From NCBI GenBank assembly GCA_013151865.1, contig JAADHN010000015.1, positions 32,026 to 64,778 on the forward strand: a stretch of 32,753 nt of DNA, written 5' to 3'. The stretch comes from Kiritimatiellota bacterium (GTDB lineage Bacteria; Verrucomicrobiota; Lentisphaeria; Oligosphaerales; JAADHN01). The notes beneath the pieces were generated by a model. It searched no databases. It saw only the letters and a list, made by a program, of their open reading frames with translations, and was not told the origin of the DNA. The translations under genes and the position numbers were made by a program. Numbering within the stretch: position 1 is the first letter of the stretch; each line of letters starts with the position of its first letter. Of the stretch, positions 9,801-32,753 are shown one piece after another.

Positions 9801-11241
9801 CAGCTACCGGTTGCGCGGCGGTTCGACGGCGACCGGACCGGATCTGCGCAGCGACCGCGACACGGCGTCCCCCGGGGAAACGGTCGTGGTCCGCGGCCGC
9901 GAGCAGCACCGCTTCCAAATTCCCCGGGACGCCCGGGCCGGCGACCGGATCTGGCGCAAGTTCGAAGGAAAGTGGATCGATTTCACCGTGATCGATCCCG
10001 CCCGGGTCGACCTCCGCGTCGACGGCGACAAACTGCGTGCGGATATCACCAGCCAAATGGCCGTCCCCGCAAAATTCGTCCTCGTCTTGAACGCCCAACA
10101 CCGCACGCTCGAACTGACGCCGGGCGCCGGCGGGCGTGCGGAGTTCGCATTGCCGCCCGCCCGCGACGAAAGCATCGACCCCATCGCGTTGAAGATCACC
10201 GCCGGGGCCGTCGGCATGACCGTGGACCGGCTGCTGCTCACCGAATCGGGGTTTGTCGAACTCGCGCCGCTCCCTGCGCACTGGACCGGGGGCATCCGCC
10301 TGCGCGGCAAGCCGGAACAAGTGGGGTTCGGGGAAACGCGGGGACACGCCTACATTGGGCGTGCATCCTGCAACAATCAGGACAAGAAAGCGCTGGACAT
10401 GCACCCCCCGTACCGGGGCGGCGTGGGGTACACGTACGCCCTGTTCGACGCGATCCGGCTCCCGGCTGCGCCGCCCGCCCGCTTCCGAGCCATGGTCGGA
10501 AAACGCGACGGCAGCGACCTCGGAGACGGCATCCTCTACCGAGTCGAAGTCGTGGACCCCGCCGGCAACGTCCGGTCCATTGCCGAGGAAACCGTCACCA
10601 AGCACCAGTGGCGCCCGATCGCGGCCGACCTCGGCCCCTGGGCGGGAAAGACCCTGCAACTCAAGCTCATTGCCGACGTGGGTCGAGCCGACAACTCGAG
10701 CGGCGACTGGGCCTGTTGGGCGGATATGAGAATCGAGAGCGCCCGGCAACAGCTCATCCGCAAGCTCATTCCACCGGACGGCGCCTTTGCCACGGCCCCG
10801 CCTCCGGTCAAAAGCGGACAGGTTCCCCGCGCCCGACTGCGCGCCGCGCGCAGCGGCCGCATCCATTACGACGGGATCGGACTCGAAGGGGCCGGCAACC
10901 AGTATGAAACGACCGCCGTCCTCAACGGCGTCGTTCTCGGCCCCATGGCACGGGCCGGCGGGAGCGAAGTCGGCGGAAAATGGGCCGAAGATGTCACCGT
11001 CGCCCTGACGCCGGCCGCCATTCGCACCCTCAAGCGCCGGAACCGATTCCAGATCCGTAATCCGGGCCGCGATTGCTTCAAAGTGCGCCGATTCTGGATC
11101 GAACTCGAACTGGCCGACGGCCGAAAATGCGCTTCGCGGGTCAGCACGGCGGTCTTCACCCAACCCGGGACTTGGCGGTATGCCGAGGGGATCGGCGTGC
11201 CCGCCGACGAAACACTCACCATCAGCATCTGGTTCGAATGA
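6886..11241 (+). CDS. Secreted multi-domain putative glycoside hydrolase (GH101-like barrel)
   Basis: This is a 1451-aa exported protein. A short signal peptide (MKTTCLGLVFCATLAAAAA) would be cut before EKSET. AAGGAG lies at 6871-6876. By eye the order is an N-terminal beta-sandwich (about 30-230), a second beta domain (about 250-470), a barrel (about 485-800), beta-rich modules (about 800-1110), an NPCBM-like carbohydrate-binding region (about 1135-1285) and a final beta module. In the barrel, Asp635 in AYCDVHTA and Glu683 in VYSEGGHH are placed like the nucleophile and acid/base of endo-alpha-N-acetylgalactosaminidases (GH101) and related unclassified families. I infer fold and role from this layout and do not recognise a close family. 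The substrate is unknown. Neighbours point to complex, probably sulfated, glycans. Confidence 0.6.
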   Translation: MKTTCLGLVFCATLAAAAAEKSETVGKRPYEMIWAHRDKDDNPPLVDFENLDGWTVETRNAVARFERSREQQIWGKFVGKLTYRAAGSKRPFVRVLPPAPIPIRGSFDAVSCWIYGNNWAWVRDATTPRVSVSLDFADPTGAEFAIRLGVVRWKEWFLCHRRLTPEQIARVANGAEFRGITIGNGLNKQDRVLYFDNLAVFIEKFPPLSFEPRPKRGIDMFPGQSPGTNTGPGRLPFPTRPETILPDNLARDSRTTAVRDKDGGVRFEYEGSDGRLTWLITPRTGTFDDIRVRWHGRGGWIRPCVGGGVFPADANGKPVAPDKAELVDAKLDSGVFRCRWKLTAPSGTVNVTWTLRVLGKSLVLDLAAPGGNVCEVRYGRAVGFAAPRAVPIPYLTYGRPRPGLIVAGRPESPLFFSEWTDWYRSNASVPWGGCAVTKEGAVCNGGVRYIPLTNGRRNDCFERLIFTLAPRVEEVLPNIPNPQSPWKKVTGTRVWRAHGASNRENDAAFWRKVHRYGMTQVIVTDHETGWRDGGESFTFRTRPAPGKGGDAGQYKYARIMQDELGFVYGPYNNFTDFAPVNEFWSYDMISRTPDNQLQGAWARCYAPKPARAVEYCARLAPIIQKKFHFSTAYCDVHTAVAPWSRVDYDPRVPGAGTFAAVFYAYGEIMLLQKKAWNGPVYSEGGHHFPYCGLTDGNYGQDQSYRLPENPWLVDFDLRKMHPLCCNFGMGNPGMFYGRNHAMGTKRREIDAYIDRFLAATVAFGHPGFLAFEGGYRNALRSYFMLQQLHSRYTLADAADIRYADAGGQLLDSSAALARGAYRRSQIVTRYTDGTVTVVNGHPAERLKVRIDERPLDLPPNGYAGWTRDGAVEVFSGDRDGTRCDYVVSPAYLYVDGRGRFVRFPKAAGAAVGICRILPDRTWEVILYDGLECGFAVDAATAVALNEAGEELGPAELRRARGLTFVMPVKEAFSYRLRGGSTATGPDLRSDRDTASPGETVVVRGREQHRFQIPRDARAGDRIWRKFEGKWIDFTVIDPARVDLRVDGDKLRADITSQMAVPAKFVLVLNAQHRTLELTPGAGGRAEFALPPARDESIDPIALKITAGAVGMTVDRLLLTESGFVELAPLPAHWTGGIRLRGKPEQVGFGETRGHAYIGRASCNNQDKKALDMHPPYRGGVGYTYALFDAIRLPAAPPARFRAMVGKRDGSDLGDGILYRVEVVDPAGNVRSIAEETVTKHQWRPIAADLGPWAGKTLQLKLIADVGRADNSSGDWACWADMRIESARQQLIRKLIPPDGAFATAPPPVKSGQVPRARLRAARSGRIHYDGIGLEGAGNQYETTAVLNGVVLGPMARAGGSEVGGKWAEDVTVALTPAAIRTLKRRNRFQIRNPGRDCFKVRRFWIELELADGRKCASRVSTAVFTQPGTWRYAEGIGVPADETLTISIWFE

Positions 11242-11452
11242 GGCCGTGTCCCCGGAGGAGAGGACTCGCTCGAATCGTCCCCCTGTCGAGGACGAGACAC
11301 CGCGGTTGCAAATCTCCACATCCCGCGCCACGTTGGCAGGATGAGATCATGTTGCGCTCTGGGGGATCGTTGCGTCCGGGACGAACGCCCCGTCCCCACC
11401 GGTTTCTCCGATGGTGTCCCGGGAGGGAAAAAGGGAAAAAGGACCGCGTGGA

Positions 11453-21453: not shown

Positions 21454-21481
21454 TTGCAATCGGATGTCGCCTCTTCATATT
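21454..21481 (+). promoter_or_regulatory. Possible sigma-70-type promoter for the helicase gene
   Basis: TTGCAA at 21454-21459 and CATATT at 21476-21481 are separated by 16 bp. Each matches four of six consensus bases. It lies about 200 nt before the chosen helicase start, within a locally AT-richer stretch. Such matches occur by chance. Confidence 0.25.
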
Positions 21482-21588
21482 CACGGGAACCACGCGATTC
21501 CCGCTTGGTCTCGGCACCGTCCGAACACGCCGCCGTCCCCGGGGGCAACTTGCGGAGCGCCGCCACAATTATGCCGCCCGGCAAGCAC

Positions 21589-21597
21589 GGGGGGGGG
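21589..21597. repeat. Nine-base poly-G tract
   Basis: A run of nine G lies 80 nt before the helicase ATG at 21677. If translation instead began at an upstream in-frame ATG such as 21464, the tract would be inside the coding sequence and slippage would switch the frame. Confidence 0.6.
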
Positions 21598-21676
21598 TGC
21601 CCGGGGAATCTGCCAGGTGGGCGGGAACTCCCTGGGTCAGCGCTTGCATTGGATGTATGAAGAGGTATCGAGGCAC

Positions 21677-24600
21677 ATGTCGTCCGCAGAATCGGCCATT
21701 TGGGACAACCGCGACCGTGGCGCCGTGGGGACGTTGCTCGCTCAGAGGTTCGTTCCCGGCGCCGATGTCTCCGTGGTTTCGGCTTTCTTTACCATCTATG
21801 CCTACGGCAAACTGCGGACCCAACTGGATCGGCTGAAGAGCTTCCGCTTTCTCTTCGGCGAACCCCGGTTTGTCGGCGCCCCGGGCCCCGACACGCCCAA
21901 GACGTTCGACATCGAAGATGCCGGTCTCCGACTGCACAATCGGTTACAGCAAAAGGCGTTGGCACGTCAATGCGCGGATTGGATCCGGGAAAAAGCCGAA
22001 ATCCGTTCCGTCGTTCGTTCGGGGTTTCTTCACGGCAAAATGGTCCACATCCGGCAACCGAACCAGGTGGAAAACGCTCTTGTCGGCAGTTCGAACTTCA
22101 CCGTGCGCGGGCTCGGGTTGAGCGCGAATGCCAATATCGAGTTGAATCTCGAAATGAACGACCGCCGGGATGTCAACGACCTGTTCCGGTGGTTCGAGGA
22201 TATCTGGACCAGCGACATGACGCGGGACGTCAAACAGGACGTTCTCAGCTATCTGGAACGCCTGTACGCCGATACCCCGCCCGAATTCCTCTACTACCTG
22301 ACCCTTTTCCACGTATTCGACCGCTTCCTCCGCGACCAGGCGGACGCCCGGCTCCTCGACGCCCGGACCGGCTTTTTCGACAGTAGGGTCTGGGACATGC
22401 TCTATCCGTTTCAGAAAGACGGCGTCCGCGGAGCGATCAACAAGATACTCCGGCACAACGGGTGCATCATAGCGGACAGCGTCGGGCTCGGAAAAACCTT
22501 CGAAGCCCTTGCGGTGATCAAGTACTTCGAACTGCTCAACGCCCGCGTACTGGTGCTCTGCCCGAAGAAACTGGTCGGCAACTGGTCTCTGTACCGCCAC
22601 AACGACTGCCGGAATATCCTGGTCGACGACCGGTTCCGCTACGACATCGCCTGCCACACCGACATGTCGCGTCGGACCGGAACGAACGACTTCGGCCTGG
22701 ACCTTGCGAATCTGAACTGGAGAAACTACGACCTGCTCGTCATCGACGAATCCCACAATTTCCGCAACAGTGCGTACGGCAAAGAAGACGAGGACGGCAC
22801 GTACCGCGCCACCCGCTACGAACGCGTTATGGAAGAGATTATCCGCAAGGGCATCCCCACGAAAGTCCTCCTGCTCTCCGCCACGCCGGTCAACAACACC
22901 CTGCGCGACCTGCGCAACCAAATCTATTTCATCACCGGAAAGTCCGATGATGCCCTTCGGGAATCCGCGGGCATTGCGGACATCGGGGAGACGTTGCGAC
23001 GTGCACAGGTCCAGTTTCGACAATGGGCCGATCGTCGCCGGGATGGGGGCCGGTCCCTTCAGCAGCTACTCGAACGGCTGGACTCCGGCTTCTTCAAACT
23101 GCTCGACGAATTGACCATCGCCCGGTCGCGCAAGCACATCGTCAGTTATTACGATCCGGCGACGTTCGGCAAGTTTCCGATACGCATGAAACCGCTCGCG
23201 GAATCCCCGCCCATCGATATCGAGGACCATTTCCCGAGTTACGACCGGATCAACCGCGACATCTCCGAGTACCGCCTGTCGCTCTATTCCCCGTCAGCCT
23301 ATGTACTTCCCCAATACAGGAGCGAATACGACATCAAAGTCGCCGGCCAGGCGCCGGATGTTTTCGGCGACCAGCGCACTCGCGAGCGATACCTGGTCGG
23401 CATGATGAAAGTGAACTTCCTGAAACGCCTCGAGAGTTCCATCCGGTCTTTCGGAATCACCATGGACCGGACAATCGAGCGCATCGACGCCCTGCTCGAA
23501 CGAATCCGGGATTTCGATGCGAACCGAGACCAGTATGAGCAACCTCCCCTGATCGACCCCATGGGCGATGAAGAACTGGAGGCACTCCAGGAGCAACTGT
23601 TGGTCGGGAGCAAGCTCAAATTCAAACTGAAACACCTCGACTTGAAGGCCTGGGAAAAAGACCTCCTGGCGGACCGCGACCAGTTGCTGAGCCTGTACAA
23701 CAACGCCACGGCTGTCACGCCCGAACGCGACGGCAAGCTGCAACGGCTCAAAGAACTGATCGAGCGGAAATCGCGCGCGCCGATCAATCCGGGAAACCGA
23801 AAGGTCCTGGTTTTCACGGCGTTTGCGGACACCGCGGAATACCTCTACGAAACCTTGAAACCATGGGCACGCGACACACTGGGCCTCCATATCGCCCTCG
23901 TGTCGGGCGGAAGCGCCGAGAATCGAACCACGTTCATGCCCGCCGGTTTTCCCCGCCAGAACCAGTACGACGCCATCCTCACCAATTTCTCGCCGCGAGC
24001 AAAAGGCCGTGCCCAAATGGCGGACATGCCCCGGGAAGGCGAGATCGACCTGCTCATCGCCACCGACTGCATCTCGGAAGGTCAGAACCTCCAGGACTGC
24101 GATTTCGTCGTCAATTACGACATCCACTGGAACCCGGTGCGGATCATCCAGCGCTTCGGACGGATCGACCGCCTCGGCTCGACCAATGACCGCGTTCAGT
24201 TGGTCAATTTCTGGCCCACCGACGACTTGAACCGGTACATCCGCCTCAAAGAACGTGTCGAAACCCGCATGGCCCTGGTCGATCTCGCGGCGACGGGCGA
24301 GGACAACCTGCTCAGCAACGAGCAACTGCGCGACCTCATCCGGGAGGACCTTACCTACCGCGACCGGCAACTCCTGCGGCTCAAAGAAGAAGTCCTCGAT
24401 TTGGAGGACATGGACGCGACCGTCACCCTGAGCGAATTCACGTTGGACGACTTTCGTATCGATCTGCTCCATTACCTCGAAGCCAATCGCCGCAAGCTCG
24501 AGGAAGCGCCCCTGGGCCTGTACGCCGTGCTCCCCCCGCCGCAACCCTCCCGAATGCCGCCCGGCTTCGACCGCTACCCCGAGTTGCACCGAATCGCGCG

Positions 24601-25027
24601 CCCCGGCGTCGTATTCTGCCTGCGCCAGGCCGATCCCGGCGATGAACTCGACCGCGTGAATCCGCTCCAGCCCTACTTCCTCGTCTACATTCGCGACGAC
24701 GGGACCGTCCGTTACAACTTCGGTCAGCCCAAGCAGGTCCTAACCATCCTGCAAGCGCTTTGTCTGGGAAAAACGACGCCGGATGAAGCCCTGTGCGAGC
24801 GGTTCGACCACGGGACCGACAACGGCGAAAACATGTCCCGGTACGACGACCTGCTTCGGAAAGCGGTCGCCGCCATTGACCGGCATATCGGGCGGCGCGG
24901 CCTCGCCAACCTGCTGGGTGGACGCGGCGGCCGTCTGCCCAAACGGGACGACGTGCCTTCCTCGCTGGACGATTTCGAACTCATCACCTGGTTCGTTATC
25001 CTCGGATCGGAGGCGAACGATGCCTGA
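21677..25027 (+). CDS. PLD-nuclease / Snf2-type SF2 helicase fusion protein
   Basis: This 1116-aa protein joins a phospholipase D-like nuclease domain to an SF2 translocase. Residues about 8-190 are PLD-like: His119-Gly-Lys121, Asn140 in GSSNFT and Glu155 in NIELN form the HxK...N...E pattern of BfiI-type nucleases, without the classic Asp of HxKx4D. The helicase follows, with Walker A lysine 273 in DSVGLGKT, DESH at 357-360, SATPVNN, and motif VI QRFGRIDR at 825-832. A C-terminal region (about 880-1116) is of unknown role. I prefer the ATG at 21677 because similarity begins at IWDNRDRG and GAAGAGG lies upstream; ATG 21653 is an alternative. The stop overlaps the next start by 8 bp. With the adenine methyltransferase downstream it suggests ATP-dependent restriction. 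Confidence 0.9.
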   Translation: MSSAESAIWDNRDRGAVGTLLAQRFVPGADVSVVSAFFTIYAYGKLRTQLDRLKSFRFLFGEPRFVGAPGPDTPKTFDIEDAGLRLHNRLQQKALARQCADWIREKAEIRSVVRSGFLHGKMVHIRQPNQVENALVGSSNFTVRGLGLSANANIELNLEMNDRRDVNDLFRWFEDIWTSDMTRDVKQDVLSYLERLYADTPPEFLYYLTLFHVFDRFLRDQADARLLDARTGFFDSRVWDMLYPFQKDGVRGAINKILRHNGCIIADSVGLGKTFEALAVIKYFELLNARVLVLCPKKLVGNWSLYRHNDCRNILVDDRFRYDIACHTDMSRRTGTNDFGLDLANLNWRNYDLLVIDESHNFRNSAYGKEDEDGTYRATRYERVMEEIIRKGIPTKVLLLSATPVNNTLRDLRNQIYFITGKSDDALRESAGIADIGETLRRAQVQFRQWADRRRDGGRSLQQLLERLDSGFFKLLDELTIARSRKHIVSYYDPATFGKFPIRMKPLAESPPIDIEDHFPSYDRINRDISEYRLSLYSPSAYVLPQYRSEYDIKVAGQAPDVFGDQRTRERYLVGMMKVNFLKRLESSIRSFGITMDRTIERIDALLERIRDFDANRDQYEQPPLIDPMGDEELEALQEQLLVGSKLKFKLKHLDLKAWEKDLLADRDQLLSLYNNATAVTPERDGKLQRLKELIERKSRAPINPGNRKVLVFTAFADTAEYLYETLKPWARDTLGLHIALVSGGSAENRTTFMPAGFPRQNQYDAILTNFSPRAKGRAQMADMPREGEIDLLIATDCISEGQNLQDCDFVVNYDIHWNPVRIIQRFGRIDRLGSTNDRVQLVNFWPTDDLNRYIRLKERVETRMALVDLAATGEDNLLSNEQLRDLIREDLTYRDRQLLRLKEEVLDLEDMDATVTLSEFTLDDFRIDLLHYLEANRRKLEEAPLGLYAVLPPPQPSRMPPGFDRYPELHRIARPGVVFCLRQADPGDELDRVNPLQPYFLVYIRDDGTVRYNFGQPKQVLTILQALCLGKTTPDEALCERFDHGTDNGENMSRYDDLLRKAVAAIDRHIGRRGLANLLGGRGGRLPKRDDVPSSLDDFELITWFVILGSEANDA

Positions 25028-25903
25028 TCCATCCGTGCCCGCGACAAGACCGCCCGCCCCGCTCCTCGACCGGGTGGCGACCATCCTCGAACAGGCCCGC
25101 ACGAACGTCGTCCGTACGGTCAACAGCCAGATGGTCATCGCCTACTGGCTCATCGGCCGCGAAATCGTCGAGGAAGAACAGCAGGGCCGGGACCGGGCGG
25201 AATACGGAACTCGATTGATCGAGAAGCTCTCTCAGCAACTCACGGAGCGATATGGGAAGGGGTTTTCGGTGAGCAACTTGGAGTCTTTTCGGAAATTCTA
25301 TATGACCTATCCTGACCGCCGACCGCAAATTCCGTACACAGTGTGTAGGGAATCTATAACTAATTCTCGCCCAACAACCAACGGGTTTGCCTCCGCCCTT
25401 TCCTGGTCCCACTATCGCCTTCTCATGCGGGTCGGCAACAGGCAGGCCCGCTCCTTCTACGAGATCGAAGCAGCTCTGTTTTCAGCCCCAACGGGGCGGG
25501 ATCACCGTAGCCTGGGGCAAGCCATTACGGCGCCGCCCCAGGTCAACATGCCAACACGGACCGTGTGCCCTGAAGGGGCACATCAACCGGCTGCCGACAC
25601 TCGATTGAAGAAGCCCTCCAGGCTTCATTCCGGTTCTCGTGCCGTCCCCGGGGCGATGCCCCGGGCTACGATGACGCCGGGCCTTCAGCCCGATCCGGAC
25701 CATCCATCGCCCTCGACCAGTGCCTCGGGAAAAATGCGATCATGCTCCCCCACGGAAACCGGCGCATCTTCACCTCACGCTATCGACTGTACCTGCCCTC
25801 GGTGGACGACCTCCGCCGGGAGTTGGTCCACGAGCTTGAACTCTGCGAGGCCCGCGCCCAATATCGGTTCAACTCGCCTTTTGCGGGGACCGCAACCCCG
25901 TGA
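25020..25903 (+). pseudogene. Broken YhcG (DUF1016) PD-(D/E)XK nuclease gene
   Basis: The first part (25020 to about 25475) encodes a normal DUF1016 N-terminal domain: VRTVNSQMVIAYWLIGREIVEEE, then SVSNLESFRKFY, then LSWSHYRLLMRV ending at FYEIEA. The family should continue into a PD-(D/E)XK nuclease, but a multi-hairpin element occupies 25485-25692. Family sequence resumes at 25700 in another frame (PSIALDQC..., then RRIFTSRYRLYLPSVDDLRREL) and stops at 25901-25903. The catalytic centre is therefore missing and the frame is shifted. The frame of the first part continues to 25973, so a 317-aa chimera could be made, with the last 165 residues unrelated. Its ATG overlaps the helicase stop (ATGCCTGA), showing it was part of the operon. 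YhcG proteins are common accessories in restriction loci. Confidence 0.85.
25485..25692. repeat. Multi-hairpin REP/BIME-like element inside the YhcG gene
   Basis: At least six stem-loops occur in about 208 bp: GCCCC-AAC-GGGGC (25485-25497), CCTGGGGC with GCCCCAGG (25511-25542), TGTGCCC with GGGCACA (25564-25582), GAAGCC with GGCTTC (25610-25626), CCCGGGGC-GAT-GCCCCGGG (25647-25665) and CGGGC with GCCCG (25678-25692). The wording AGCCCCAACGGGGCG and TAGCCTGGGGCAA resembles abundant intergenic repeats of Planctomycetes-like genomes, to my recollection. No transposase lies inside. It may move like REP elements through an enzyme encoded elsewhere (inference). Confidence 0.75.
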
Positions 25904-25969: not shown

Positions 25970-27124
25970 ATGAAAAAGACCCAGTTCAGCATTCGAAACG
26001 TGGGGCCACTTCGAGAGGTCGATTTTCGCTTCGGCGACCTGACCGTCCTCGTCGGTCCCCAGGCGGCCGGCAAAAGCATCGCACTCCAACTCCTCAAGCT
26101 GACCCTGGATGCCGGAGGAATCGCCGCCACCCTGAAAAAACACGGTCGAGATTGGGACGGCAAATTCGGTCCGTTCCTGGATTTGTATCTCGGCGAAGGA
26201 ATGCACGGCGTCTGGGAGGCCGGTTCGAGCCTCATCGAAATGAATGGACGGCCGGTCATCCTCATGGATAGAATCCGTCGTTCACGTTCACGCCCGGAAA
26301 GGTCGTATTTCATCCCCGCTCAACGGGTCCTGACGCTCGCCAACGGCTGGCCGAGGCCCTTTACCGACTACGCGCCCGGCGATCCGTTCGTGGTCCCGGC
26401 GTTCAGCGAGAACCTCGGTTTCCAAATGGCCGTGGGGCTGGGCCGAGGCGGAGCGATCTTTCCCCAACAAGGACGTCTCAAGAAGCCGATCCGCGACGAG
26501 TTGACCCGGACGGTGTTCGGCGATTTTCAACTCAAACTGGACAAACGGGGACTGCAGAAGCGCCTTGTCCTGGAACACGCGGGGGAAACTTTGCCGTTCA
26601 TGGTCTGGTCCGCGGGTCAACGGGAATTCGTCCCGCTTCTGCTGGGGTTATATTGGCTGTTGCCGCCATCGAAAACATCGCGGCGCGGCGACATCGAGTG
26701 GGTGGTCGTCGAAGAGATCGAGATGGGCCTGCATCCAGGGGCAATTTCCGCCGTCATGCTCTTGGTTCTGGACCTTGTCGCCAGGGGATACCCACGAGTC
26801 ATACTCTCGACCCACTCGCCGCACGTTCTCGACATCGTCTGGGGCCTGCGCATGATTCGAGAGCATGGGGCCGACCCCGGCGCCGTGCTCGATTTGTTCG
26901 GTCTCCACCATTCTCAATCCATGATGAATATGGCCGAAAACGTCCTCCAAAAGACCTGCACGGTTTTCTATCTCGATCGGGTCTCCGGTAAGTCGCGGGA
27001 TATTTCGTCCCTGGACCCGGGCGCGGCCGATTCGGAAGTCTCCGGCTGGGGCGGGCTCACCGAATTCAGTGGACGAGTCGCGGATGTCGTTGCCCGAGTC
27101 GTCAGCGCCGCGGAGGGACGTTGA
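25970..27124 (+). CDS. ABC-type AAA ATPase (OLD/AAA_21-like)
   Basis: This 384-aa protein is a single-chain SMC/ABC-type ATPase without long coiled coil. It has Walker A GPQAAGKS at 30-37, a signature-like WSAGQREFVPLLLG, Walker B WVVVEEIEMGLHP with the catalytic Glu, and an H-loop LSTHSPHVLD. It resembles ATPases that act as sensors in two-gene defence modules, such as those of OLD, Septu and PARIS type, but I cannot assign it to one. No TOPRIM or HNH nuclease is fused. GGAG lies about ten bases before the ATG. The next gene starts one base after its stop codon, so the two products are almost certainly co-translated and probably form a complex. Localisation is cytosolic. Confidence 0.88.
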   Translation: MKKTQFSIRNVGPLREVDFRFGDLTVLVGPQAAGKSIALQLLKLTLDAGGIAATLKKHGRDWDGKFGPFLDLYLGEGMHGVWEAGSSLIEMNGRPVILMDRIRRSRSRPERSYFIPAQRVLTLANGWPRPFTDYAPGDPFVVPAFSENLGFQMAVGLGRGGAIFPQQGRLKKPIRDELTRTVFGDFQLKLDKRGLQKRLVLEHAGETLPFMVWSAGQREFVPLLLGLYWLLPPSKTSRRGDIEWVVVEEIEMGLHPGAISAVMLLVLDLVARGYPRVILSTHSPHVLDIVWGLRMIREHGADPGAVLDLFGLHHSQSMMNMAENVLQKTCTVFYLDRVSGKSRDISSLDPGAADSEVSGWGGLTEFSGRVADVVARVVSAAEGR

Positions 27125-27125
27125 C

Positions 27126-27581
27126 ATGGAGTTCCGAGACGCAGTGAAAAATACCCCCGATCTACAGGATGCGTTGCAGCGCGGCCTCCAGGCACTGAAC
27201 AATACGGCCCGTGCCAAGGTGAGGGCGTCGCGGCCAAGGGACCTCCGCGGCAGCGTGGACTTGGACGGACATTTGAAAAAGAAGTACCCCAAGGCCAGCC
27301 GCTGGGATTATGCGATTGGTGTCGCCCAAGGCGGGGGCGTTGACGACCGTGTCGTGTACGTCGAACTCCATCCGGCGCACACCGGCGAAGTGAGAACAGT
27401 CCTGAACAAGTACTCCTGGCTGCGTTCCTGGCTCCGGAGTAAGGCCCCGGATCTCGATGCGCTCCCGGCATCCTACCACTGGATCGCCACGAGCGGAGTA
27501 CATATCAGCAAGGGCTCACCCCAGGTCCGTCAGTTGGCAATATCCGGGATCCGAGTGTCCAGCAGGCTGGAGTTGACGTGA
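27126..27581 (+). CDS. Unrecognised 151-aa partner protein of the AAA ATPase
   Basis: I do not recognise a named family. The 151-aa protein starts one base after the ATPase stop. Visible features are SVDLDGHL (Asp45, Asp47), RWDYAIG (Asp61), a strand VVYVELHPAHTGEV with Glu80-x-His82, His85 and Glu88, then Lys95 in LNKYSWLRSWL, and YHWIATSGVHI (His118, Trp119, His126). An acidic residue before a beta-strand ending in E-x-H, then a lysine-bearing helix, is compatible with a degenerate PD-(D/E)XK-like nuclease, but this is a guess. A DNA-binding or regulatory role is equally possible. It has no signal peptide or membrane segment. Tight coupling suggests an effector or adaptor for the ATPase. 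Confidence 0.8.
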   Translation: MEFRDAVKNTPDLQDALQRGLQALNNTARAKVRASRPRDLRGSVDLDGHLKKKYPKASRWDYAIGVAQGGGVDDRVVYVELHPAHTGEVRTVLNKYSWLRSWLRSKAPDLDALPASYHWIATSGVHISKGSPQVRQLAISGIRVSSRLELT

Positions 27582-27721: not shown

Positions 27722-30700
27722 ATGCCCGACACCGAACTGAAACAGCGCATTGAACAAGCTCTTGCGGACTTCGCGGCCAAGCCGCTACGCGACGCGGCCA
27801 TCGCCCTGTTCGATGTCCTGGGCTACCGGAGTCAACGCGCGCCGTCTATGCCGGACTCCGAACCGGAGACCTTTGCCGCGATGTTCCAAGACATCTCCGG
27901 CGCCCAGCTCAATCGGGACAAGGCCCTGCTTCGCGACTGGGTTTCCGCGGACCTGCTCTTCCAACTCACCGATGACGAGGTCCGCAGCGCGGACGGGGAC
28001 CTGTCGCTGTTCGAGAGTTCCGCTGCCTGGGACAACACGAAGATCGAGTCCTACCTGTTTATGGCCGTTGGGTTGCGAAGTCCGCACCACCGGGAAGGCG
28101 CCCGCCGGGACCGGCCCTACACCCGTTCCGAACTGGCCGCCATCACCCGCGCCGTCAATCGGGTATTTCCCATGCCGGTCATGCTCCTCTTCCGCCACGA
28201 CGACACCCTGACGCTGTCGGTGATCAAACGCCGACTCCACAAGCGGAACGCCGACCGCGATGTGCAGGAAAAGGTCACCCTCGTCAAAGACGTACGTTTC
28301 GGCGATCCGTTACGCGCTCACATCGAAATCCTCAATGATCTCTCCCTCGGCGCGCTCCATGACGAGTACCGGTTCCACAACTTCGTCGGGCTGCACCAAG
28401 CCTGGGAGAAGCGCCTGGCAAGTTACGCCCTCAACGAGCGTTTCTACCGCGAGATTGCCGATTGGTATTTCTGGGCACTCAGCCATGACGGTGTGGTGTT
28501 GCCTCGCAGCATCGCAGAAATCGGAGACCCGGAGGAGCAGGACAGGCAGCGGGCCGTCTTCTTCATCCGTCTGCTCACCCGTCTTGTCTTCTGCTGGTTC
28601 CTGCAGGAGAAACGCCTGGTCCCGCGGGACCTGTTTCGGCGGCGTGTTGCCGAGGAGTTGCTCGACGACTTCTCGCCCGCGGCCGGCACCTACTACCGCG
28701 CCGTCCTCCAAAACCTGTTCTTCGCCACCCTTAATCAGGAACAGAACCAACGCGATTGGCGCAAGAAGTACCCGGGAACACGCGACGGAAATCGTGGCGT
28801 CACCAACCTGTGGCGCTACCAGAACCTCCTGACCGATCCCGGCCGCTTTGAATCGCTGTTGCGCGAGCAGATCCCGTTCGTCAATGGCGGACTTTTTGAT
28901 TGTCTCGACGACCAGGAAGCCGACCCCAAGGTCTTCCTCGACGGTTTCAGTGAACGGCGCGACAACAAGACCTGCCTGCCCAATGAGCTGTTCTTCGGCG
29001 AAGAACGCATTGTGGATCTCAGCGCGATCTACGATGACAAGCGGCGGCGACGCGAAAAGGTGCGGGGACTCATCGAAATCCTGAGTTGCTACAAGTTCAC
29101 CATCGAGGAAAACACGCCGCTCGAAGAGGAGATCGCCCTCGACCCCGAACTCCTCGGCAAGGTGTTCGAGAATCTCCTTGCCGCCTACAGCGAGGACACG
29201 CGAACCACCGCCCGGAAAGCATTGGGCGCTTTCTACACGCCCCGCCGAATCGTCAGCTATATGGTCGATGAATCTCTGCGCAACTATCTCGCGAGCCAAG
29301 TGCCCACGGTGTCGTCGGACATCCTGCGCGACCTCTTTCAGGCAGACCCAAGTGAGTACAGCGCAACCGAACACATCAATGCCGCCGACCGCGCCGCGTT
29401 GATCAATGCCATCGGCCGCGTCAAGATCATCGATCCGGCCTGCGGTTCCGGTGCCTTCCCCATGGGGGCACTCCACCGACTGGTCGACCTGCTGCGCAAA
29501 CTCGACCCGAACAATGAAAGCTGGAAACGCGACCGGCTGGCGGAAGCCGAACGCTACTATGAACTGCTCCGCGCCGCCAATGCCTCAGACGAAGAACTTG
29601 CGGAGTGCGCGGACCGCATCGAGGACATCCGCCATTCGTTCGACACCCGTTTCCACGCGCTGGACTTCGGCCGCAAGCTCTACCTCATCGAGAACTGCAT
29701 CTACGGCGTGGACATCCTGCCCATTGCCTGTCAGATCGCAAAACTCCGCTTTTTCATCGCTCTCATCGTGGATCAGAATGTGGACAGAGAAGCGCCGAAC
29801 CTCGGCGTCCGCCCACTGCCGAACCTCGAAACTCGCATGGTCGCCGCCGACACGCTCATGCCCATCGAAAGACCGGACCAACAGATGAACCTGCTCGATG
29901 CCTTGGTGCAGCCCCTACGCTGCAAGCTCGAGAAAGTCCGGCACGATCATTTCAACGCGCGCACTCCGGCCCGCAAACGAAAGTGCCGTGAACAAGACCG
30001 GAAGCTTCGCGACGAAATTGCGACCCTGCTGCGCGAGAACGGAATGCCCGCGGACTCCGCGGCCAGATTGTCGGAATGGGACCCGTATGACCAGAACCAT
30101 CCGGCGGGCTTCTTCGACTCGGAATGGATGTTCGGACTGCCTGTCGGCCCGGTGCGAGTGGACGGCGCGGCTCCGGGCACATTGCGGGGAAACTTCGCCC
30201 TGATGAACAAGGTCGCCGGACAGATGGAACCGACTGCGGCCGGCAACGCCCAGAGCGGGTTCGACATCGTGATCGGCAATCCCCCGTACGTCCGCATCCA
30301 GACGCTCAAGAAGCAGGATCCCGCACGAGTGGCCTTCTACAAAAAGCACTATGCCTCGGCCAGGAAGGGAAACTACGATCTCTACGTCGTCTTTGTCGAG
30401 GCCGGGCTGAACCTGCTCAAGCCCGATGGCCACCTGGCCTACATCCTCCCCCACAAATTCTTCAATGCCAAGTACGGCGAGCCCCTGCGCAAACTGCTGG
30501 CCGACGGGGGGCACCTCCAGCACGTCGTGCACTTCGGCGACCACCAGGTCTTTCCCGGCGCCACCAACTACGTCTGCCTCCTCTTCCTCGCCAAAGCTGG
30601 CGCCGACGCCTGCCGATTCGTGCGCGTGGATGAGTTGGAGGAATGGTACCGCACTTTCAAAGGCACGGATGGCGAGTTCGCGGCCGAAAAGATTGGCGCG

Positions 30701-31804
30701 AACGAATGGAATTTTACGGTGGGGCCTGGAGCAAAGGTCTTCGAGAGGTTGCAGGCGATGCCTCAAAAGTTGGGGGACGTGGCGGATGTGTTTGTTGGGC
30801 TACAAACCAGCGCTGACCGGGTGTTTGTTCTTAAACCACGCGCCGAGTATCGAGACTCTGTAGGCGAATTTGAGACATCTACGGGCGGAACCGTGCAACT
30901 GGAAGCGCCCATGCTGAAGCCTTTCCTCGCTGACGTGTCGCTCGCATCGTATGCAATCCCGCACAGTAACCGCGTTCTCATCTTTCCGTACTCACTTGCC
31001 GAAGGTGAAGCTCGACTGTATGACACGCAGTTTTTGAAGGGGAATTTCCCACGCACATGGGCTTACCTATCGAAACACTCGGAGGCTCTTCGGGGGCGAG
31101 ATGGCGGCAAATGGAATCACGGCGGTTGGTACGCCTTCGGACGAAGCCAAAATCTGACTGCGATGGAGAGCCCCAAATTGGTAGTGCAGGTCATATCTCA
31201 ATCTCCCCGTTTCGCCTTCGATGACCGGGGCCTTTACTTCACCGGCGGCGGAAACGGTCCCTATTACGGCGTAAGATGGGCGAGGGTGGACGAACCACGC
31301 TCACTCCACTTTCTTCAGGCACTCCTCAATTCCCGCGTGACCGACTTCTTCATTCGCCAAGTGAGCACGACCTTTCGCGGCGGCTATTGGTCGTACGGGA
31401 AACGGTTTATCGAGCAACTCCCCATCGCTCCGGCCACTCCGGCCCAGCAGATACACGTCGTCCGCTTGGTGACTTATCTCCTCTGGCTCAACGAGCGCTT
31501 TCAGCAGCACGCGGATCTGAAGACCGCGCGGGACGCACTCATGCTGGGGTACTTCGAGCAGGTGCTGAAGGGATTGGTCTACGAGCTGTACTTTCCCGAC
31601 GAGTTGCATGCTCACCGCCTCGCCCTGTTCGACCTGATGGCCAAAACAGACCTGCCCGACATCGACAGCATCCCCGAGACAGATCGCCTGCGCCGCCTGC
31701 ACGAGGTTTTCGAGACCATCTACCACACATCCCATCCACTCCGCGGCGCGCTCTATCGTCTGGGATCACTGGAAACCGTTCGTATCATTGAGGACAGGCA
31801 ATAA
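27722..31804 (+). CDS. Eco57I-like adenine-specific DNA methyltransferase (type IIG-like)
   Basis: It should transfer a methyl group from SAM to adenine N6 in a specific DNA site. The 1360-aa protein has an N-terminal domain of about 480 residues without an obvious nuclease motif, FYTPRRIVSYMVDESL (from 504), SAM-binding motif I DPACGSGAFPMG (from 571), catalytic NPPY at 853-856 and ILPHKFFNAKYGEPLRKLL. A TaqI-like target-recognition domain follows (about 1000-1250, beginning near VFVGLQTSADRVFVL), and IEQLPIAP lies near the end. GGAG precedes the ATG. The lack of a visible nuclease suggests that the PLD-helicase upstream does the cutting. The region 30690-31290 is visibly lower in GC than its flanks, as if its target domain had been exchanged. 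It is longer than typical stand-alone methylases and similar in build to PglX-like enzymes. Confidence 0.92.
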   Translation: MPDTELKQRIEQALADFAAKPLRDAAIALFDVLGYRSQRAPSMPDSEPETFAAMFQDISGAQLNRDKALLRDWVSADLLFQLTDDEVRSADGDLSLFESSAAWDNTKIESYLFMAVGLRSPHHREGARRDRPYTRSELAAITRAVNRVFPMPVMLLFRHDDTLTLSVIKRRLHKRNADRDVQEKVTLVKDVRFGDPLRAHIEILNDLSLGALHDEYRFHNFVGLHQAWEKRLASYALNERFYREIADWYFWALSHDGVVLPRSIAEIGDPEEQDRQRAVFFIRLLTRLVFCWFLQEKRLVPRDLFRRRVAEELLDDFSPAAGTYYRAVLQNLFFATLNQEQNQRDWRKKYPGTRDGNRGVTNLWRYQNLLTDPGRFESLLREQIPFVNGGLFDCLDDQEADPKVFLDGFSERRDNKTCLPNELFFGEERIVDLSAIYDDKRRRREKVRGLIEILSCYKFTIEENTPLEEEIALDPELLGKVFENLLAAYSEDTRTTARKALGAFYTPRRIVSYMVDESLRNYLASQVPTVSSDILRDLFQADPSEYSATEHINAADRAALINAIGRVKIIDPACGSGAFPMGALHRLVDLLRKLDPNNESWKRDRLAEAERYYELLRAANASDEELAECADRIEDIRHSFDTRFHALDFGRKLYLIENCIYGVDILPIACQIAKLRFFIALIVDQNVDREAPNLGVRPLPNLETRMVAADTLMPIERPDQQMNLLDALVQPLRCKLEKVRHDHFNARTPARKRKCREQDRKLRDEIATLLRENGMPADSAARLSEWDPYDQNHPAGFFDSEWMFGLPVGPVRVDGAAPGTLRGNFALMNKVAGQMEPTAAGNAQSGFDIVIGNPPYVRIQTLKKQDPARVAFYKKHYASARKGNYDLYVVFVEAGLNLLKPDGHLAYILPHKFFNAKYGEPLRKLLADGGHLQHVVHFGDHQVFPGATNYVCLLFLAKAGADACRFVRVDELEEWYRTFKGTDGEFAAEKIGANEWNFTVGPGAKVFERLQAMPQKLGDVADVFVGLQTSADRVFVLKPRAEYRDSVGEFETSTGGTVQLEAPMLKPFLADVSLASYAIPHSNRVLIFPYSLAEGEARLYDTQFLKGNFPRTWAYLSKHSEALRGRDGGKWNHGGWYAFGRSQNLTAMESPKLVVQVISQSPRFAFDDRGLYFTGGGNGPYYGVRWARVDEPRSLHFLQALLNSRVTDFFIRQVSTTFRGGYWSYGKRFIEQLPIAPATPAQQIHVVRLVTYLLWLNERFQQHADLKTARDALMLGYFEQVLKGLVYELYFPDELHAHRLALFDLMAKTDLPDIDSIPETDRLRRLHEVFETIYHTSHPLRGALYRLGSLETVRIIEDRQ

Positions 31805-32197: not shown

Positions 32198-32428
32198 GAT
32201 CCGGCGCATTTCCACCCAGATTGGGCCGGTGCGCTCCTTTCAACCAAAGAACAGCGCAGGGAACTCCTGGAAACATTGGACGCGTACCTGCAACATTCCG
32301 AAGCCAATGCCGGCATCCGCAACGTGATCATCCAAATCCGCCCGGAAGTGGAACGCTGGGTAGAGAAAAGTCCCTCACCCGCTCCAGACGCGGAACCAGC
32401 CGGCAATGGAGAAAAATCTTCCGATTGA
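32198..32428 (+). pseudogene. Possible C-terminal gene remnant, family unknown
   Basis: The frame ending at 32428 reads DPAHFHPDWAGALLSTKEQ, then a helical segment with ELLETLDAYLQHSE and IIQIRPEVERWVEKS, which looks like real protein rather than a random frame. No start codon with a ribosome binding site precedes it and upstream residues look non-coding. It may be the 3' end of the gene whose 5' end is at 31801, with the middle lost, but nothing proves this. Confidence 0.25.
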
Positions 32429-32440
32429 AGCCCCAAGAAG

Positions 32441-32753
32441 GACGGGCAGAGTGGACGGGGCGGACTGATGTGGACTGAAGTGGACGGGACGCACAGGATG
32501 GGCACTGCGGACTGAAGTGGACAGGACGCATGGGGGGGATACAGGAGGCAGAGTGGGCGAGGCGGACTGATGTGGACGGGACGCACAGGATCGACACTGT
32601 GGACTGAAGTGGACAGGACGCATGGGGCACAGGAGGCAGAGTGGACGGGGTGGACTGATGTGGACTAAGTGGACGGGACGCACAGGATGAACACTGTGGA
32701 CTGAAGTGGACAGGACGCATGGGGCACAGGAGGCAGAGTGGGCGAGGCGGACT
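32441..32753. repeat. Degenerate tandem array, period about 90-97 bp, open at the window end
   Basis: The words AGGACGCATGGG (32523, 32615, 32712) and AGGCAGAGTGG (32546, 32635, 32731) recur at 92-97 and 89-96 bp. Each unit is built from smaller GTGGACTGA/GTGGACGGGACGCACAGGA words, so there is a nested short repeat based on GTGGAC. Roughly three and a half units are visible. Minus-strand open frames across it (proline- and serine-rich) are a by-product of the repeat. I see no conserved-repeat/unique-spacer pattern, so this is not a CRISPR array. Confidence 0.85.

Follow-up and report, generated by a model that had tools for sequence, protein, structure and literature searches.

A REP/BIME-like hairpin element in the place of the nuclease core of a YhcG gene

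The window, i.e., the whole stretch of 32,753 nt analyzed here (G000:C31:32026-64778), belongs to a 6.2 Mb metagenome assembly of 176 contigs, and its structure is known from this assembly only. It carries an operon on the forward strand, in which the two surviving parts of a YhcG (DUF1016) gene are separated by a hairpin element. The features of the locus are as follows:

21464–25027, plus strand: HKD/PLD and Snf2 helicase, first gene of the operon (Pfam SNF2-rel_dom, Helicase_C and PLDc_2; PADLOC C3a139 HKD+Snf2, E 2e-128)
25020–25475, plus strand: N-terminal part of YhcG (DUF1016_N), frame intact (PF17761; end of the profile match)
~25477–25694, plus strand: full-length six-hairpin, RAYT-linked REP/BIME-like element in the place of the core (edges of related copies, 11-copy alignment, fold z −4.8)
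25485–25497, plus strand: outer left hairpin, GCCCC-AAC-GGGGC (sequence; conserved in the alignment)
25507–25542, plus strand: REP, a GTAG tag followed by the palindrome CCTGGGGC...GCCCCAGG (sequence; pairs kept through two-sided changes)
25565–25581, plus strand: inner left hairpin, GTGCCC...GGGCAC (sequence; conserved in the alignment)
25610–25626, plus strand: inner right hairpin, GAAGCC...GGCTTC (sequence; conserved in the G010 and C49 copies)
25647–25669, minus strand: inverted REP, CCCGGGGC...GCCCCGGG followed by CTAC, which is GTAG on the other strand (sequence; compensatory stem changes)
25678–25692, plus strand: outer right hairpin, CGGGC...GCCCG (sequence; compensatory G-C/C-G stem change)
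25697–25903, plus strand: C-terminal tail remnant of YhcG, in a frame other than that of the N-terminal part and with its own stop (profile match; tail alignment)
25970–27124, plus strand: AAA ATPase, PDC-M56A (PADLOC, E 1e-142)
27069–27581, plus strand: PDC-M56B, partner of the AAA gene (PADLOC, E 2e-50)
27722–31804, plus strand: Eco57I-type DNA methylase, type IIG-like, last gene of the operon (PF07669, E 1e-38)

Residues encoded by 25020–25475 match DUF1016_N (PF17761, E 5e-36 with Pfam), which places the gene in this family. A profile made from intact relatives matched the N-terminal part up to nt 25475 (profile 30–177) and, after a change of frame, the tail from nt 25742 to 25861 (profile 349–388, i-E 1.9e-6), with zero profile match between the two in the six frames scanned. 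The tail could be followed further upstream by alignment to 15 intact proteins, where GPSIALDQC of the window, from ~25697/25700, pairs with DNPT(I/V)GLILC. Over its length the remnant GPSIALDQC...IFTSRYRLYLPSVDDLRREL corresponds to DNPT(I/V)GLILC...IFASKYxLxLPTEEEL, and its stop codon lies at 25901–25903. The initial annotation had let the family sequence end near 25475 and resume, after a frame shift, at 25700. The end and the frame shift agree with the profile matches, and the point of resumption is right because of the pairing of GPSIALDQC with the intact tails.

Alignment with intact DUF1016 proteins showed that 153 residues are absent relative to the ortholog in genome G017, spanning IKNNWT...EGD. 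The lost span holds both catalytic segments, IDLVFYH and LIDLKVG, and thus the whole PD-(D/E)XK (D...DxK) site. The gene therefore bears a replacement and not a simple insertion, as had been claimed. No alternative frame restores the nuclease in any of the six frames, and a Pfam search across the genome of the window gave no match to PF06250. As both PF06250 and the D...DxK site are absent, we file the gene as a broken gene and not as a nuclease. It has the N domain, the tail and the operon place of an intact member of the YhcG/DUF1016 PD-(D/E)XK nucleases (PF17761 plus PF06250; PADLOC PDC-S02) but, unlike these, no nuclease domain. A PDB sequence search with the N domain as query gave no meaningful match. 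The frame of the N-terminal part is open through the element up to 25973, and its stop overlaps the start of the AAA gene as ATGA.

The operon order on contig C372 of G017 is helicase, intact YhcG, methylase, and the YhcG there carries both PF17761 and PF06250 (Pfam). Both neighbors of this intact gene are orthologous to those in the window (helicase upstream, 52% over 1129 aa; methylase downstream, 39% over 1333 aa). DNA similarity between the two loci ends on the left at 25470 and is next seen on the right at 25765. Given this synteny, the window YhcG would have been an ordinary member of the operon before its breakage. The AAA/PDC-M56B pair lies between YhcG and methylase in the window and was not found in the G017 locus. 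Among the genome contigs scanned, the AAA gene has relatives at three loci, and at two of these it is paired with M56B; neither pair locus has the helicase, YhcG or methylase, and hence no closer operon came out of the contig scan. The pair stands alone in KSB1 and Thermoflexales genomes (two other phyla) and, because it recurs alone there, it looks like a separate defence cassette. At the end of the window (32328–32753, minus strand) there are also imperfect repeats with the translation RPVHFSPQCxSCASRP...

The element in the place of the core is about 217–220 bp long and meets coding sequence within a few bases at either side. A GTAG tag (25507–25510) precedes the first palindrome and CTAC (25666–25669) follows the inverted one, as is typical of GTAG REPs, and the REP at 25507–25542 forms an inverted pair with that at 25647–25669. 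The insert folds better than all of 200 dinucleotide shuffles (z −4.8), and its raw folding energy is unexceptional for the GC-rich window (about rank 19 of 446). We regard the element as a real unit because related copies share both of its edges, not because of its folding.

The initial annotation had suggested a search of the genome for other copies and one for a RAYT-type transposase. Searches of the order for copies revealed 10 relatives in four genomes (G010, G001, G011 and, in the window genome, G000:C49). Their matches start at window positions 25475–25484 and end at 25689–25694, with one end at 25704. The 11-copy alignment retains the layout of outer hairpin, GTAG-REP and inner hairpin, followed by inner hairpin, inverted REP with CTAC and outer hairpin; in the copies of G011 and G001 conservation is poorer for the inner and right-hand parts. 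Both REP stems and the right outer stem show compensatory changes between the copies. The GTAG tag is present in most copies, although not in all (G011 has ACAG). Several copies each occur in G010, G001 and G011, while the C49 copy (73%) is the only near full-length relative in G000. No copy closer than ~74% was found in any search (best in G000 ~73%), and a recent jump of the element within the genome is therefore unsupported. Judged from the reading frames, the other copies inspected seem to lie between different genes or in non-coding DNA; Pfam matches on both flanks were obtained for two copies only, and these belong to different families (RNA polymerase/ankyrin and HlyD/OEP). Loss of a gene interior was not seen at any other copy inspected.

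A transposase of the type sought was found as well. In G004:C60 inverted copies of the left end of the element enclose the gene of a 150-aa Y1 (RAYT-type) transposase (PF01797, E 2e-22), and Y1-type genes adjoin related hairpins in G000:C25 and G001:C351, the latter gene being identified by eye from its C-terminal sequence. With related ends on both sides of a Y1 transposase gene, the element is RAYT-linked.

The arrangement seen in G004 is one already described for RAYTs and REPs (PMC3733652, PMC3116915). Like GTAG REPs, BIMEs/REPINs and RAYTs (PMC3733652, PMC3116915, PMC2817692), the window family shows palindromes tagged by GTAG, or by CTAC in the inverted partner, REPs in inverted pairs, and related ends around a Y1 transposase gene. 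GTAG REPs, in-gene ones included, are known from Verrucomicrobia and Planctomycetes (PMC3733652, PMC3116915, PMC2817692), and in-gene GTAG REPs have been reported as ORF insertions that are abundant in the verrucomicrobium Opitutus terrae (PMC3733652). The window unit differs from GTAG REPs in being larger (six hairpins, ~217 bp) and in replacing 153 codons, whereas the published in-gene REPs are presented as having inserted into ORFs. We found no report of a REP replacing a protein domain in the literature, of which our coverage was incomplete. The Rickettsia palindromic elements (RPEs) are likewise palindromic, lie within genes and often leave the frame open. The likeness meant here is one of form and position, and RPEs add to a gene that retains its core, unlike the window element.

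In Rfam the REP and the inverted REP resemble Acido-Lenti-1 (RF01687), one on each strand, but with 25.1 and 24 bits both remain below the gathering threshold of 37 and membership was rejected; the search of the element otherwise gave only unrelated matches. The hairpins that flank the Y1 transposase at G000:C25:2300-2994 also resemble this Acido-Lenti-1 "sRNA". RF01687 may, at least partly, represent REP DNA instead of an RNA gene.

A second, young repeat of 263–267 bp, whose inner hairpins are similar and whose terminal inverted repeats of 17 bp read GGGCCTGTCGCTTTATT, is present in G000 in at least ~20 copies (contigs C91, C34, C157, C14, C10, C172 and others; L003-L012, L034-L048), and many contigs end in it. 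Judging by the flanks, its target would be palindromic and contain a short direct repeat (e.g., ATCA). The 267-bp form has an order of inner hairpins similar to that of the window element, yet was rejected as its source: the 17-bp terminal repeats, and with them the mark of a MITE of this genome, are not present at the window element, which with ≤73% identity to any copy is too diverged to be one. At the window element the target DNA that might have shown a duplication is gone.

The same kind of replacement was identified in a second genome, G308. Its YhcG gene (G308:C77) runs to QIHSLFFE in the N-terminal part and continues with a 239-bp insert and then the tail RKERLLIEECVSNYITR; the congener G321, in which the gene is intact, has an identical tail. 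DNA identity between the two genomes is 87% in the left flank (993 bp) and 86% in the right flank (813 bp); between these flanks G308 is missing 539 bp of G321 and has gained the 239 bp of hairpin insert. The insert folds very strongly (z −13) and holds a symmetrical hairpin element, of which G308 has three other copies (~71–73% identical); the edges of the insert consist of unrelated filler, ~24 and ~28 bp long. Judged from the sequences, the G308 replacement is an event independent of that in the window, since G308 lies outside the class of the window, its element is of a different subtype and the breakpoints differ. The N domain of G308 has 13 synonymous and 8 non-synonymous changes versus 10 and 7 on the intact branch; on these small numbers it shows no excess of amino acid changes and is not visibly decaying. 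With an independent second genome showing the same kind of replacement, the swap of an element for the core looks recurrent, and it is probably an accidental way of breaking YhcG genes.

Loss of the core is more widespread than the element. Among the matches listed for the 149 genomes of the class, ~20 of ~155 DUF1016_N matches, counted by eye, have no PF06250 partner listed, and for ~17 of these this is not due to a contig end. Deletions of the core that keep the tail and contain no element at all were found in G017:C86 (in frame), in a second remnant on G017:C372 and in G329:C171 (loci L170, L148 and L125). The second remnant (L125, ~11080–11380) lies directly behind the intact YhcG, with the core missing in frame (WSRNILALQM-NKAIGVSEYQLT). 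Partnerless matches and element-free deletions together make loss of the nuclease core a frequent fate of YhcG genes, of which the cases with an element at the junction are one form.

It cannot be explained by chance that a 217-nt unit with relatives elsewhere lies exactly between the two halves of one gene; its edges coincide with both breakpoints, as judged from the edges of related copies and from the tail alignment. We consider it reasonably probable that the window holds an inactivated YhcG of a helicase-YhcG-methylase operon, in which the gene was dispensable and a RAYT-linked REP/BIME-like element became fixed where the core was deleted. One or two copies of the element would have entered YhcG as non-autonomous DNA through a RAYT-type transposase. 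The core might then have disappeared when two copies recombined or when a deletion began at the hairpins, either of which would leave a single element flush with both ends. Of the two possibilities named in the initial annotation, selection against the nuclease and dispensability, this reading takes up the second: the breakage would have been tolerated because YhcG was dispensable, and a possible remaining product is an N-domain protein with no nuclease activity. Against this reading stands the fact that no donor copy found is closer than ~74%, so that movement by a present-day RAYT appears unsupported.

A replacement in one step, in which the repair of a gap or break in the gene (or an aberrant reaction of a RAYT) brought in the element and target DNA was lost in the same event, is a lesser but still serious possibility. 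It would agree with the flush or near-flush edges in two independent cases and with the filler at both edges in G308, filler DNA at edges being typical of patch repair. The filler is not predicted by recombination between two copies. However, no such reaction is described in the REP literature searched, and loss of the gene interior, judged from the flanking sequences, is confined to these two cases among the copies inspected. The proposal of the initial annotation that the elements move into genes with deletion of target DNA thus survives in part: the pairing of element and deletion stands and has a second independent case, whereas a one-step event does not follow, with other inspected copies lacking interior loss and cores also being lost where there is no element. 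The routes that fit best are recombination or hairpin-started deletion, which suits the flush edges of the window, and capture of an element in break repair, which suits the G308 filler.

The nuclease-less YhcG, i.e., the N domain with its read-through, might also be a functional product that has been kept, and not debris. The open frame that reaches the AAA start, the single open frames across the junction in G308 and G017:C86, and the change counts of the G308 N domain all point in this direction. We nevertheless find this improbable, given that the window tail is out of frame, that at 64% GC 30% of shuffles have no stop across the element and 5% none over the full open run, and that the G308 counts are small. 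Insertion by chance at or near the junction of an older, ordinary core deletion is unlikely, and slightly more so: element-free deletions of this kind do exist, but only a few bases separate the window element from either breakpoint, and G308 would need the same coincidence again. It is just as doubtful that RAYT-linked hairpin elements repeatedly and specifically strip the catalytic cores of YhcG, with the N-domain proteins kept as nuclease-dead parts of defence operons. A misassembly, joining two YhcG fragments through a repeat, is the least likely of all, for although several of the 176 metagenome contigs end in another, high-identity repeat, the copy is ≤~73% identical to any other in the genome and so lacks the long shared words through which a false join could arise, the gene order of G017 is preserved around both halves, no other YhcG gene in the genome could have supplied a half, and G308 has the same kind of structure.

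REP elements are usually regarded as intergenic passengers or small additions within genes. The parts found here (REP/BIME, RAYT, broken YhcG) are of known kinds; what is new is that such an element recurs together with the loss of a nuclease core. Two independent swaps, one of which has its intact allele in a congener, tie REP-like elements to loss of host DNA and provide natural alleles for studying the action of REP elements and their domesticated transposases. They also indicate that YhcG genes of defence islands readily lose the nuclease and retain the N domain.

Hairpins at or near the junction were also present in L148, L149, L135 and L157. A scan of the core windows of 14 intact YhcG genes showed no comparable hairpins, and the same hairpin segment, which if found inside intact DUF1016 genes would have spoken against a replacement, was likewise absent there. 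Palindromes as a general cause of core loss were rejected, since many core-less genes have none, the sample is small and the scan was chosen post hoc. The DUF1016_N linker before LSWSHY is hypervariable (L148, L149, L024, L031 and L170), and several genes have palindromic, repeated, in-frame DNA in it. Some core deletions start at such linker palindromes, and the linker of L149 (G031:C496) has four hairpins. In this gene the YhcG N domain is followed by palindromic repeats and then, by eye, by the apparent C-terminal end of a type I restriction subunit, which looks like a larger deletion with hairpins at the junction.
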